Below, in pieces: positions 18,369-55,868 of a stretch of 64,000 nt of DNA. The notes under the pieces were generated by a model, which was not told where the DNA came from, did not search any database, and saw only the letters and a list, made by a program, of their open reading frames with translations. The position numbers and the translations under genes were made by a program. Source of the stretch: a filamentous cyanobacterium ESFC-1 (GTDB lineage Bacteria > Cyanobacteriota > Cyanobacteriia > Cyanobacteriales > Spirulinaceae); the NCBI GenBank assembly GCA_000380225.1, contig KB904821.1, forward strand, positions 3,455,631 through 3,519,630, written 5' to 3'. Each line of letters begins with the position of its first letter. Within the stretch, counting starts at the first letter, position 1.

Positions 18369-19481
18369 CTAAAACGAAAGCATCCCCTCCTCATCAATCA
18401 CCAAAGGGGTATTCGGAAAATCTTGGCGGGTGAGTTGACGAATCAGATTAATACTGCGTCCTTCCGGGTCGGGATAAGGTAAACCTTGAGGATCTAAGCG
18501 GATGGGGTGAATTTGCCCCTGTATAAAGTTTCCTAAGTCATCCAGTTCGATTTCTAGCACAAAAGAGTAACCATTTGCCCCTGCCGTACTGAAGGTACGA
18601 TACCCCATAAAGTTACCGAGAGAATAAGCAACCAGTTTGCCGTTACGCAGTTGTATAGCCCTGGGAACATGGGGCCCGTGACCGAGAATGAGATCGGCCC
18701 CATTCGCGATCGCGTTCTCGGAAAATAACACCATATTGCCCCGATTTTCCCCATAAAAGGTTTCAGTCCGGTTTTGCACTCGCAAGGCATTATTGCCCTC
18801 AGCCCCGGCGTGAACCGAGATAATGGTAATATCGGCGCGATCGCTGGCTTCGCGAATCAAAGCATTGGCTTCGGGCAGATTATTAATCGAGTTGTGATAC
18901 CCCAAATAACTAAACCCTAACCAAGCCACCGTAATACCATTGACTTCGGTATAAACAACTCTGTCTTTTTCCCCAACGGGAATAATGCCTACATTGCTGA
19001 GATTATTTAGAGTATCGCGAAAGCCCTGTTCGGTAAAATCATAAGAATGATTATTGGCCACACTCAGCACATCAAACCCCGCTTGCTGGAGAAATTGGGC
19101 GTATTCGGGAGGAGTGCGAAAGGCATAGACGCGACCAGCAGATGGCACTTTTGGGGTCGTAGGATGGCGGGTGAGGGTACTTTCAAAGTTGCCAAACAAA
19201 AAATCTGCATCCTCAAGCAACGGTTGAACGCGGTTGAATACGGTACTGGGATTAGGAGGCAGTTGATTACTGGGATAATTGGTTCCCATAATCGTATCAC
19301 CCACCGCTTTGATCGTAATTGTCGGTAATTCTGGGGCAATAAATTCCGGAGGAGGCGGTTCGGGGAGGGTCGGAAAAGGGTCGGGCCGACTGGACTTTTG
19401 GGTTTGAGTCCAAAAAACCATCCCCAATAGCACCATAACCAAGGGTGAAGTCCAACGAGATAAGCGAGAAAGAGGACGCAT
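18369..19481 (-). CDS. CapA family protein (poly-gamma-glutamate synthesis-like metallophosphatase fold)
   Basis: A 370-residue protein of the CapA/PgsA family, which has a calcineurin-like phosphatase fold. Motifs are AVGDTIMGTNYP (about residues 60-70), DFLFGNFESTL, VLSVANNHSYDF around residue 138, ISVHAGAEGN and LILGHGPHVPRAI near 265. The histidine and asparagine metal ligands typical of the fold are present. A transmembrane or signal helix spans residues 11-25, followed by a proline-rich linker, so the domain is likely periplasmic. Family members aid capsule or polymer attachment, but many cyanobacterial relatives have no proven role. No capB/capC genes are nearby. Confidence 0.87.
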   Translation of the reverse strand: MRPLSRLSRWTSPLVMVLLGMVFWTQTQKSSRPDPFPTLPEPPPPEFIAPELPTITIKAVGDTIMGTNYPSNQLPPNPSTVFNRVQPLLEDADFLFGNFESTLTRHPTTPKVPSAGRVYAFRTPPEYAQFLQQAGFDVLSVANNHSYDFTEQGFRDTLNNLSNVGIIPVGEKDRVVYTEVNGITVAWLGFSYLGYHNSINNLPEANALIREASDRADITIISVHAGAEGNNALRVQNRTETFYGENRGNMVLFSENAIANGADLILGHGPHVPRAIQLRNGKLVAYSLGNFMGYRTFSTAGANGYSFVLEIELDDLGNFIQGQIHPIRLDPQGLPYPDPEGRSINLIRQLTRQDFPNTPLVIDEEGMLSF

Positions 19482-52410: not shown

Positions 52411-53310
52411 ATGCTCGTCTATGCACTCGCGATCGCCGTCGCCCTAGGCAGTTTCGCCTTTTATATGGCGGCATTTTTCTTCCCAGAAGCCCATCGTCGC
52501 AATGACTTTATCTGGAGTGGCGTGGGGCTATTTTACGCCCTTGTGTTGTGGTTATCTGCCGATCGCATTACTGGCGGCGTATTACTCGGTCAATCGGCTT
52601 CCATTGTCTTACTCGGATGGTTGGGCTGGCAAACCTTAACCCTACGCATTGCTAAAGCCCCCACCGAAGCCAAAACCGAAGTTTCCGAGGCCACCACCGA
52701 ACAAACCAAAAACAAGCTGCTAGGGGGCATTACCGGGCTGTTCCGCAAACAAAAACCCGAACCCACCCCAGAAGCCAAGCCGGAAGCCGTTGCCGAATTA
52801 GTAGACCAAACCGCACCCACCGAAACGGCAACTCCTCCAGTGACTGAAACGGAAGCTGAGATTTTTGAAACCCCGGAATCTAGCACAGCCGAAACGCCCT
52901 CTGCCCCAGAAGCTGAGATTTCTGAAACCTCGGAAGTGGGCATCCCTGAAGCCGTAACACCGCCACCGGAAGCCGCACCAGCTACCACTCCCCCAGAAGT
53001 CGAACCGACCCCGGCAACCGTCTCAGAAGATGACAGTAATTGGCCCGACGATGAGGACTTTAGTAACTGGCCCGATGAGGAGGAAACAGAAAACCCGCCC
53101 AGTCCTGATGTAGAAGTTGCCGCGACCCCACCCGAAGCCCCACCCACCGCCCTGCAAGCAGACGCTCAGACTGCTTCAAAAGCGCCAGATATTGAGGTGG
53201 AAAAAGTTGCGCCTGAAGCTGAGTTAACCCCTCCGGCAGAAGACCCTGCCAGTCATGATGCACCCGCACCGACAGAGCCGATTAATTCTGAAGAACCGCC
53301 CCAAGGGTAA
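52411..53310 (+). CDS. Ycf66-like membrane protein with long acidic tail
   Basis: A 299-residue protein. Three hydrophobic helices occupy residues 1-87 (VYALAIAVALGSFAFYMAAF, SGVGLFYALVLWLSA, GQSASIVLLGWLGWQTL), which fits the N-terminal region of the Ycf66 family of cyanobacteria and chloroplasts (function unknown). The remaining 210 residues are a low-complexity tail dominated by E, P, A and T, with acidic motifs NWPDDEDFSNWPDEEE near residue 212. The tail is probably cytoplasmic and unstructured. A good ribosome site (GAGGAGG, about 13 bases before the ATG) supports the start. Confidence 0.75.
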   Translation: MLVYALAIAVALGSFAFYMAAFFFPEAHRRNDFIWSGVGLFYALVLWLSADRITGGVLLGQSASIVLLGWLGWQTLTLRIAKAPTEAKTEVSEATTEQTKNKLLGGITGLFRKQKPEPTPEAKPEAVAELVDQTAPTETATPPVTETEAEIFETPESSTAETPSAPEAEISETSEVGIPEAVTPPPEAAPATTPPEVEPTPATVSEDDSNWPDDEDFSNWPDEEETENPPSPDVEVAATPPEAPPTALQADAQTASKAPDIEVEKVAPEAELTPPAEDPASHDAPAPTEPINSEEPPQG

Positions 53311-53387
53311 TATTGCGCCCAATCTGCCCGCGATTTCCCGAAACCGTTGGCATTTTTAGGGGAATTGAGGGCGATCGCGTTTTGGGT

Positions 53388-54362
<975 letters not shown>

Positions 54363-54470
54363 TTAAAGTCTAACTTGCACATCTAGCTACAAAATCTTAA
54401 ATTTAAGCTGTATAGCACCCTAATGCCAAGATTTATTTTTCATTATAAGCAACTTGGGTTTAATCTTCAA

Positions 54471-54510
54471 AGCAGAAAAATTGCCCCTGTCTGTTGGTAC
54501 AACCGGGGCA
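54471..54510 (-). terminator. Predicted terminator between patX and hetR
   Basis: On the minus strand TGCCCC (54505-54510) pairs with GGGGCA (54482-54487), with an inner GTTG/CAAC pair, and the hairpin is followed by ATTTTTCTGC. It lies 55 bases after the patX stop and 170 bases before the hetR start, so patX is expected to have its own short transcript, with partial read-through possible. Confidence 0.65.
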
Positions 54511-54564
54511 GATGCCAGAGCTTATTCAAATTGACTCAACATCCCAGAAGTTAGGGGGCGATCG

Positions 54565-54897
54565 CTAAACTTGAGCGTTACAGCGACCACTGCCCCGTTC
54601 GCATTGCTTTTGACTTAATTCTGTGATGATTTCGTAGGTTTTGGCGGTGTTCTGGTTCGGCTTGGAATTAATGCGACCGCTACCCCGTTCTTTGGTTTGA
54701 CCATCGAGACGACCACTGCCGCGTTCCTTGGTTTGACCATCAAGGCGACCACTACCGCGTTCTTTGGTTTGAGTTAAATTAAGGTTAGCAATTTGAGCAT
54801 TGGGAGAATCAGTAATCTCAGATTCAATCGTTACGGCCTTCACAGGCACGGAGATTGATAGTATGCTCAAAAGCAGAATAGCAAGGTAAGTGTGCAT
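54565..54897 (-). CDS. patX: PatX-type RGSGR peptide precursor with four ERGSGR copies
   Basis: 110 residues from the ATG at 54897 (an in-frame GTG at 54948 is less likely, as an inverted repeat lies between). A Sec-type signal peptide covers about residues 1-21 (MHTYLAILLLSILSISVPVK). The mature part carries RGSGR at residues 47-51, 59-63, 71-75 and 101-105, each preceded by Glu. The first three form a 12-residue repeat (TKERGSGRLDGQ); the last is bracketed by C99 and C106 (QCERGSGRCNAQV). RGSGR is the PatS/HetN pentapeptide that inhibits HetR. The position upstream of hetR and the signal peptide match PatX as described for cyanobacteria. Four copies in one precursor is unusual. Confidence 0.88.
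   Translation of the reverse strand: MHTYLAILLLSILSISVPVKAVTIESEITDSPNAQIANLNLTQTKERGSGRLDGQTKERGSGRLDGQTKERGSGRINSKPNQNTAKTYEIITELSQKQCERGSGRCNAQV
54674..54780 (-). repeat. 36-bp tandem repeat encoding the ERGSGR units
   Basis: Three 36-bp units lie in tandem, each beginning with CGACCACT or CGACCGCT and containing CGTTCTTTGGTTTGACC (plus-strand reading). They differ by a few mostly silent bases, so the peptide ERGSGR is kept while DNA drifts. A fourth, separate copy of the peptide is at 54582-54600. Confidence 0.8.
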
Positions 54898-54906
54898 AGC
54901 AAATAT

Positions 54907-54935
54907 CCGTGTCAGGTATCTATTTCCTGATACGG
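54907..54935 (-). promoter_or_regulatory. Inverted repeat just upstream of the patX start
   Basis: Arms CCGTGTCAGG (54907-54916) and CCTGATACGG (54926-54935) match at nine of ten positions around a nine-base spacer. It ends ten bases before the chosen ATG. It could be an operator for a dimeric regulator or a leader hairpin masking translation. It does not resemble the HetR site known upstream of hetP. Confidence 0.55.
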
Positions 54936-55037
54936 AGTTTTTCTGCACTGATCAGGACGAAATAAATGTCCTTGGTGACGGAAAAAAGTTTGCTATCCCT
55001 GGATGTACGGGGTTCTCACCTAGGGCGGTACGGTTTT

Positions 55038-55508
55038 CTACAGTACCGCAAAAAAGCTACGATCTAGCTCATAACCCAACGCTTGAGCGAGGGCTTGCAG
55101 TTTGGCAGGACTGGGAATGTTTTGTTGTTTTAACCAATCGCTTAAAATAAACATTTTTTGCATGACAAAGATTTCTAAAGCTTCGGGATTGTATTGAATC
55201 CCCTCGGTACGACTAAACTGATGGGGAACCAACATCGCCACATAGCGGTACAGTTCCCCGGCTTGACCGTCGAGTAGAAATAAAAACCAAGGATAAGCCG
55301 CATCAAGCCGCACAAACCACAGCCGAATCTCGGGAATTTCCGAAAGTTCTCTGGGGTCGTTGGGTTCGCGGGGATAGTTGATTTCAAAGCTGACTTGTTT
55401 TTCGAGGGAAACGGGGGAAGCCGAGGCGATCGCCCCTTGGACGGGAGATAGGTCTAAACTCTGAATTTGCTTGGCATCTAAAGAAATAATCACGCTTTTA
55501 AGGAACAA
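55038..55508 (-). CDS. crr6: CRR6 family NdhI maturation factor
   Basis: A 156-residue protein with the CRR6 (DUF1817) pattern: FEINYPREPNDPRELSEIPE (about residues 42-61), IRLWFVRLDAAYPWFLFLLD, MLVPHQFSRTEGIQYNPEAL (about 92-111) and LEIFVMQKMFILSDWLKQQ. CRR6 helps assemble the NdhI subunit into photosynthetic NDH-1 in cyanobacteria and chloroplasts. The start is TTG at 55508, with a GTG five codons later as an alternative. It is divergent from the DUF6464 gene. A short inverted repeat GCGGTAC/GTACCGC overlaps its stop. Confidence 0.9.
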   Translation of the reverse strand: MFLKSVIISLDAKQIQSLDLSPVQGAIASASPVSLEKQVSFEINYPREPNDPRELSEIPEIRLWFVRLDAAYPWFLFLLDGQAGELYRYVAMLVPHQFSRTEGIQYNPEALEIFVMQKMFILSDWLKQQNIPSPAKLQALAQALGYELDRSFFAVL

Positions 55509-55529
55509 TGAATAATGAACAATTTACAA

Positions 55530-55562
55530 TGAGTTAATTTAATAACCAAATAACCAATAACC
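55530..55562. repeat. AATAACC heptads ending at the DUF6464 start codon
   Basis: Three or so AATAACC units (about 55540-55561) run directly into the ATG at 55563, as also seen at 32252 and 51008. Confidence 0.7.
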
Positions 55563-55868
55563 ATGTTGGAGATTGTATTCATTGGCATTTTGGTGTTAAT
55601 TCCCTTGGTGCTATCTGAAGTCGGACGAAGACGCGCTCGTCAGCAATGGCAAACGCGACTCAAGCAAATTTTAAACCAAAATCGCGGTTATTCTGGCCGA
55701 GGCGCGATCGCGTCCTTCTCGGCGAAACCGCCGGAAGTTTTAGGCGATCGCACTTGTGTGTATAATGCTCGTTCCACCCATCTTCGTTGTGTGGTCAATC
55801 CGTCGGGCCCCTGTTCGGGTTGTCCTCACTATCAACCCCGGTTTAAAACTTTGAAGAAAGGGGAATAG
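55563..55868 (+). CDS. DUF6464 family small cysteine-rich membrane protein
   Basis: A 101-residue protein. An N-terminal transmembrane helix (residues 3-18, EIVFIGILVLIPLVLS) is followed by a basic stretch and a C-terminal cysteine cluster: RTCVYNARSTHLRCVVNPSG and PCSGCPHYQP (four Cys, about residues 65, 76, 84 and 87). The pattern suits a small metal- or Fe-S-binding domain on the cytoplasmic or lumenal side, but function is unknown. It is found across cyanobacteria. The following 260 bases are the HEARO-like RNA region. Confidence 0.8.
   Translation: MLEIVFIGILVLIPLVLSEVGRRRARQQWQTRLKQILNQNRGYSGRGAIASFSAKPPEVLGDRTCVYNARSTHLRCVVNPSGPCSGCPHYQPRFKTLKKGE

Follow-up and report, generated by a model that had tools for sequence, protein, structure and literature searches.

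Whether a gene with four copies of the hexapeptide ERGSGR encodes a precursor of several inhibitory peptides, or a PatX-type protein in which a repeat has merely grown, was the question raised by a locus of the filamentous cyanobacterium ESFC-1. The locus lay in a 64,000-nucleotide stretch of the genome, referred to here as the window. The patX reading frame ran on the minus strand from an ATG at 54897 to a stop at 54565 and encoded 110 residues. The open frame extended further to a GTG at 54948, and the proteins of relatives began at the ATG. The ERGSGR motifs started at residues 46, 58, 70, and 100, with a 12-residue period for copies 1–3 and with copy 4 located 30 residues beyond copy 3. 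In Tandem Repeats Finder, the array was a 36-bp unit repeated 2.8 times, with 87% matches and a score of 156. The N-terminus, read by eye, had a hydrophobic core and a small residue ahead of the cleavage site presumed after VKA, and its 12-residue mean hydrophobicity exceeded the threshold of 1.6. The frame, the strand, and the repeat search bore out the sequence-only reading, which had described a signal peptide followed by four ERGSGR, three of them in a 36-bp tandem with a 12-residue period. By the features that can be tested from sequence, the gene is a PatX (Table 1).

Table 1. Features of the patX–hetR locus, with positions in the window.
Feature	Position	Strand	Basis
patX, PatX-type precursor, 110 aa, four ERGSGR	54565..54897	-	reading frame and motif positions
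ERGSGR copy 1	54745..54762	-	motif position in patX
ERGSGR copy 2	54709..54726	-	motif position in patX
ERGSGR copy 3	54673..54690	-	motif position in patX
ERGSGR copy 4, cysteines on both flanks	54583..54600	-	motif position in patX
36-bp tandem repeat, 2.8 units, holds copies 1–3	54674..54772	-	Tandem Repeats Finder
Signal-peptide-like N-terminus, residues 1–21	54835..54897	-	eye and hydrophobicity threshold
Inverted repeat TCCGTATCAGG - 9 nt - CCTGACACGGA, directly upstream of the patX ATG	54906..54936	-	upstream alignments
DIF1-like box TCCTGA, one change from TCCGGA	54952..54957	-	60 to 55 nt before the ATG
hetR, 304 aa, presumed peptide receptor	53388..54302	-	Pfam PF03574 and PF18460; NCBIfam NF009718

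On the same strand, hetR began 262 bp beyond the patX stop, which confirmed the earlier claim that this PatX adjoins hetR. The HetR protein matched NCBIfam NF009718 with 548.7 bits (cut-off 489), and one hetR was found in the 5.63-Mb, three-contig genome. In the known HetR–peptide structure, the free amino group of the first peptide residue, X, is reported to be held by E254 and D256, and the terminal carboxyl of the peptide to lie near R223 (PMC4649674). The same source puts the affinity of ERGSGR for Anabaena HetR at about 10 nM, with release of HetR from DNA, and reports that the change of E254 to Ala in Anabaena HetR lowered the affinity from 12 to 91 nM (PMC4649674). The contacts R223, E253, D256, D270, and D278 were kept in ESFC-1, and E254 was replaced by Thr. 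Thr at this position was present in 21 of the 64 genomes used for the HetR tree and had no tie to multi-copy PatX. The idea that extra copies compensate in dose for a weaker E254T receptor was dropped; among the 64 genomes, PatX was multi-copy in 4 of 21 with T254 and in 13 of 42 with E254. As a separate observation, T254 HetR was paired with a His-first PatX motif (HRGSGR-type) in 0 of 21 genomes, and E254 HetR in 31 of 42. These pairings, which come down to only three independent contrasts, hint at a possible co-evolution between residue 254 of HetR and the first position of the peptide.

PatS of Anabaena is very short and has no signal peptide. Its hexapeptide ERGSGR is identical to that of ESFC-1, but the ESFC-1 protein fell below the cut-off of the NCBIfam PatS profile. 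PatX of Anabaena/Nostoc PCC 7120 is likewise a small precursor with an RG(S/T)GR motif and an association with hetR; it is exported and has a DIF1-type promoter (PMC12756182, PMC7377430, PMC7761841), to which the putative signal peptide and the DIF1-like box of ESFC-1 would correspond, and it has one motif, HRGTGR, in 56 residues instead of four ERGSGR in 110. That precursor is reported to be processed by PatP, which gives HRGTGR (PMC12756182).

The alignment and copy count across related genomes that the sequence-only reading had proposed were carried out on 13 genomes of the Spirulina family including ESFC-1 (G000), the sole member of its genus there. At the hetR locus, seven of the 12 family mates shared every tested 60-base word with named records, namely Spirulina sp. 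CCY15215, S. subsalsa FACHB-351, Spirulina sp. DLM2.Bin59, Cyanobacteria bacterium SBLK, Spirulinaceae cyanobacterium SM2_1_0, Spirulina sp. SIO3F2, and Spirulina sp. CS-785/01, which identifies ESFC-1 as a filament of the Spirulinaceae. When a protein search, scans around hetR, and the upstream model were combined, PatX was found in all 13 genomes. The number of RG[S/T/C]GR motifs was four in ESFC-1, three in G008, three in G001, and two in the other ten. All 13 were multi-copy when RGCGR, which replaces one motif in G008 and G004, was counted, and 12 were so strictly, the strict count in G004 being one. A related protein without RGSGR, named beforehand as evidence that would speak against the multi-peptide reading, did not occur among the relatives checked; RGSGR was conserved, although the PatX proteins of the family were only 27–40% identical outside the motifs. 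By these counts, the multi-copy state is a trait of the whole Spirulina family and not a quirk of one strain. Within the genera of the family, the copy numbers were 2, 2, and 2 in g4, 2 and 2 in g6, and 2 and 2 in g7, and this mostly stable count of two argues against hypervariability. The patX gene lay within 1.5 kb upstream of hetR in three (G000, G008, and G004) of the 12 family genomes with a hetR match, the view in G002 covering 313 bp.

In most family relatives, the first motif was DRGSGR preceded by a cysteine pair, and in most the last was ERGSGR preceded by Lys. Of the 30 family motifs, 15, from 12 of 13 family genomes, had Lys immediately ahead of the hexapeptide; of 114 motifs from elsewhere (101 motifs in other genomes and 13 in g92), none did. 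In ESFC-1, Lys precedes X in copies 1–3. The genome also contained a nifH (G000:C1:2683667-2684485), which scored 459.5 bits against a curated cut-off of 394.35, and ESFC-1 is probably a nitrogen fixer within the Spirulina family.

Outside the family, the state of PatX was assessed with a census of stretches from 151 genomes, in which only part of the listed matches was fetched. The stretches came from matches of the upstream model, which hit 128 of 388 genomes of the order at E up to 0.01, and from HetR, which hit 80 of 386 genomes of the phylum. An ORF with a signal-like N-terminus and RG[S/T/C]GR was taken as PatX-like, and 114 such ORFs were found in 106 of the 151 genomes; for many of the 45 genomes without one, the reason is that the stretch covered the hetR side alone. 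One motif was present in 97 ORFs, two in 10, three in 2, four in 4, and five in 1, in agreement with the earlier statement that one copy is the usual state. The 17 multi-copy ORFs belonged to the Spirulina family (13), genus g92 (3), and G500. In g92 (G177, G215, and G246), all three were multi-copy, with five motifs in G177, four in G215, and four in G246, the last having two RDSGR units in addition to four RGSGR. The g92 unit was 21 residues long and the array differed between congeneric genomes, and the rest of the family of g92 had 11 single-copy PatX ORFs. G500 had four copies, and L051, a named MAG outside the 151-genome census, had three copies with a 12-residue period. The PatX proteins of g92, G500, and L051 resembled that of ESFC-1 in having several RGSGR after one signal-like N-terminus, but differed in their spacers, in X, which was mostly Tyr or His, and in their separate origin on the HetR tree. 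In this quick tree of 64 genomes, 17 of them multi-copy, at least five changes between the single- and multi-copy states were required, one of which depends on the unsure position of G035, whose very long branch falls within the Spirulina family, and the placement of G500 and L051 was also unsure. Judged by the tree, multi-copy PatX arose separately in three lineages outside the Spirulina family (g92, G500, and L051). At least two separate PatX ORFs, another route to more copies, were present in seven census genomes. Genus g10 (L156, L162, and L173) had a tandem pair of patX genes, both preceded by a separate upstream region; one gene of the pair encodes ERGSGR and the other RRG(S/T)GR.

The exact DIF1 sequence TCCGGA was absent upstream of patX, and TCCTGA was located at −60, the aligned position. 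In 22 aligned PatX upstream regions, a box TCC[GTCA]GA was present about 60 nt before the ATG, as TCCTGA in 16 (including ESFC-1), TCCGGA in four, TCCCGA in one, and TCCAGA in one. Of the 114 PatX-like ORFs, 106 were preceded by TCCNGA at a distance of 76 to 45 nt. TCCGGA itself was strongly depleted across the window, with one occurrence (at 19345) against 18.2 expected from shuffles. The inverted repeat TCCGTATCAGG...CCTGACACGGA stood just before the ATG in most of the 22 regions. The upstream model, built from 16 regions with that of ESFC-1 patX among them, gave one convincing match in the ESFC-1 genome, patX, at E 1.7e-16; the next matches had E values of 0.30 (the patX site, other strand) and 0.60, and the model missed patX of G004. 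Ten-base arms matching at eight or more positions were present in 75 of 102 upstream regions against 8% of shuffles that keep base composition only, in a set that leans towards dyad-bearing regions because the upstream model helped to find them.

The patX dyad folded with a z value of −3.81, and in its alignment 89.1% of the cells paired and two of 11 pairs were changed on both sides. It is a candidate RNA hairpin or a candidate DNA operator. The patS start site is reported 35 bp below DIF1 (PMC7377430), and with the same spacing at patX only one arm of the dyad would be transcribed. As an operator for HetR the dyad was rejected, as it differs from the reported GGGN5CCC (PMC4192349, PMC4649674). 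Between patX and hetR, the terminator scan found no terminator and the visible stem folded no better than shuffles (z −0.82); an Rfam search of 53300–55600 gave no match.

The constraint on the motifs was measured as the minimum nucleotide and amino-acid changes among the RGSGR copies of one gene. The copies in ESFC-1 patX differed by 4 nucleotide and 0 amino-acid changes (4/0), all synonymous. Since 71% of random changes would alter a residue, the chance of this result is about 0.007 by a rough estimate. The copies of G001 (5/0), L051 (5/0), G215 (3/0), and G177 (1/0) were likewise free of residue changes, and those of G008 (9/1), G500 (8/1), and G246 (2/1) had one. The corresponding values for the spacers were 17/8 in G215, 11/6 in G246, and 9/3 in ESFC-1, the last including the stretch before the first unit. 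Two of the six units of G246 had decayed to RDSGR, and thus not every copy is tightly constrained. For ESFC-1 patX, the copy comparison indicates that the RGSGR units are selectively kept.

These values bear on neutral repeat growth, in which a disordered spacer region tolerates duplication and one working copy is accompanied by passengers. The 36-bp DNA tandem, the RDSGR units of G246, and the prevalence of single-copy PatX are what such growth would produce, but the copies differ synonymously only in ESFC-1, G001, L051, and G215 while the spacers change residues, and at least two motifs, counting RGCGR, are kept throughout the Spirulina family. We regard neutral growth as unlikely. The two to four RG[S/T/C]GR motifs in every family genome, together with the all-synonymous copy differences and the conserved upstream region, indicate that the four-motif PatX goes beyond chance.

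It is rather likely that patX is a multi-peptide precursor from which the copies are cut out as HetR-inhibiting hexapeptides. The conservation upstream of patX suggests that this region drives transcription of the gene. The precursor would be exported by the putative signal peptide, as export has been shown for PatX in Nostoc, where PatX is reported to require export, to be processed outside the cytosol by PatP, and to be cut 27 residues before the motif (PMC12756182). Alr1666, the PatP of Nostoc, is listed as PBP10 (PMC7766704). In ESFC-1, peptidases outside the cytosol may cleave the precursor at its spacers; every copy could then yield XRGSGR, here ERGSGR, with the Lys before X as a likely cut site. 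The ESFC-1 genome encodes four proteins of PF00144, which we take to be the family of the PatP-type enzyme, and three of these had signal-like N-termini by eye. Because the reported structure calls for a free amino group at X and has the terminal carboxyl near R223, each copy would need cuts on both sides. The peptide would then pass into the cytosol, either of the cell that made it or of one next to it, bind the hood domain of HetR, and free HetR from DNA, a step shown for ERGSGR and Anabaena HetR (PMC4649674) and suggested for ESFC-1 by the conserved contacts. Amplification of units within one gene, separately in several filament lineages, would give more peptides per precursor, and it is plausible that copy number sets the signal dose.

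The findings counted against this multi-peptide reading were the Thr at HetR 254, the RDSGR decay, the stable family counts, the 97 single-copy ORFs of 114, and the data from Leptolyngbya BL0902, in which the effects of patX deletion are reported as basically independent of hetR (PMC11298460). These Leptolyngbya data suggest that, in filaments that form no heterocysts, PatX is able to act without HetR. The deletion transcriptomes and the location of patX apart from hetR in most family genomes would fit a PatX that acts on another target, but the HetR peptide contacts are conserved except at 254 and PatX and HetR are reported to co-occur (PMC7761841), and action on a different target is quite unlikely for ESFC-1.

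Very unlikely, in our view, is that the copies serve ligand diversity rather than dose, with D-, E-, A-, N-, and K-RGSGR and RGCGR differing in affinity, stability, or partner. The unlike first and last motifs of the relatives and the RGCGR of G008 and G004 agree with such diversity, but all four ESFC-1 hexapeptides are identical and HetR affinity is reported not to depend on which side chain stands at the first position (PMC4649674). A spurious frame, or an RG-rich structural repeat unrelated to PatX, is barely credible. In its favour, the protein had no match in Pfam and only 21.3 bits over residues 46–51 against NCBIfam PatS profile NF047415 (below the cut-off of 30); against it, the upstream region, neighbour, N-terminus, and motif are conserved in relatives, which already contradicts it.

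The role of HetR and PatX in filaments without heterocysts has been described as a mystery (PMC11298460), and control of breakage through necridia by the pair has been conjectured (PMC7761841). The terms "copies" and "tandem" were absent from the latter article in a word check. In the literature searched, partly at abstract level and apart from the founding PatX paper (Elhai and Khudyakov 2018), no account of multi-copy PatX was found. Multi-copy PatX is real and conserved, and its priority is uncertain, subject to what Elhai and Khudyakov may list.

The yeast alpha-factor precursor carries several identical peptides between spacers in one secreted chain; its sequence and enzymes are unrelated to those of ESFC-1 PatX, and the likeness is an analogy only. 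The several identical units of ESFC-1 patX would form a natural dose series, in which removal of units alters the peptide yield and leaves the promoter untouched. That such a solution emerged more than once suggests selection on how much peptide each precursor delivers. Tentatively, and with less confidence than in the precursor itself, we propose that filaments repeatedly made PatX a polyprotein, adjusting through gain and loss of units how strongly or how far the HetR inhibitor acts, and that this state is ancestral and fixed in the Spirulina family. If true, PatX would be a bacterial counterpart of multi-copy pheromone precursors.
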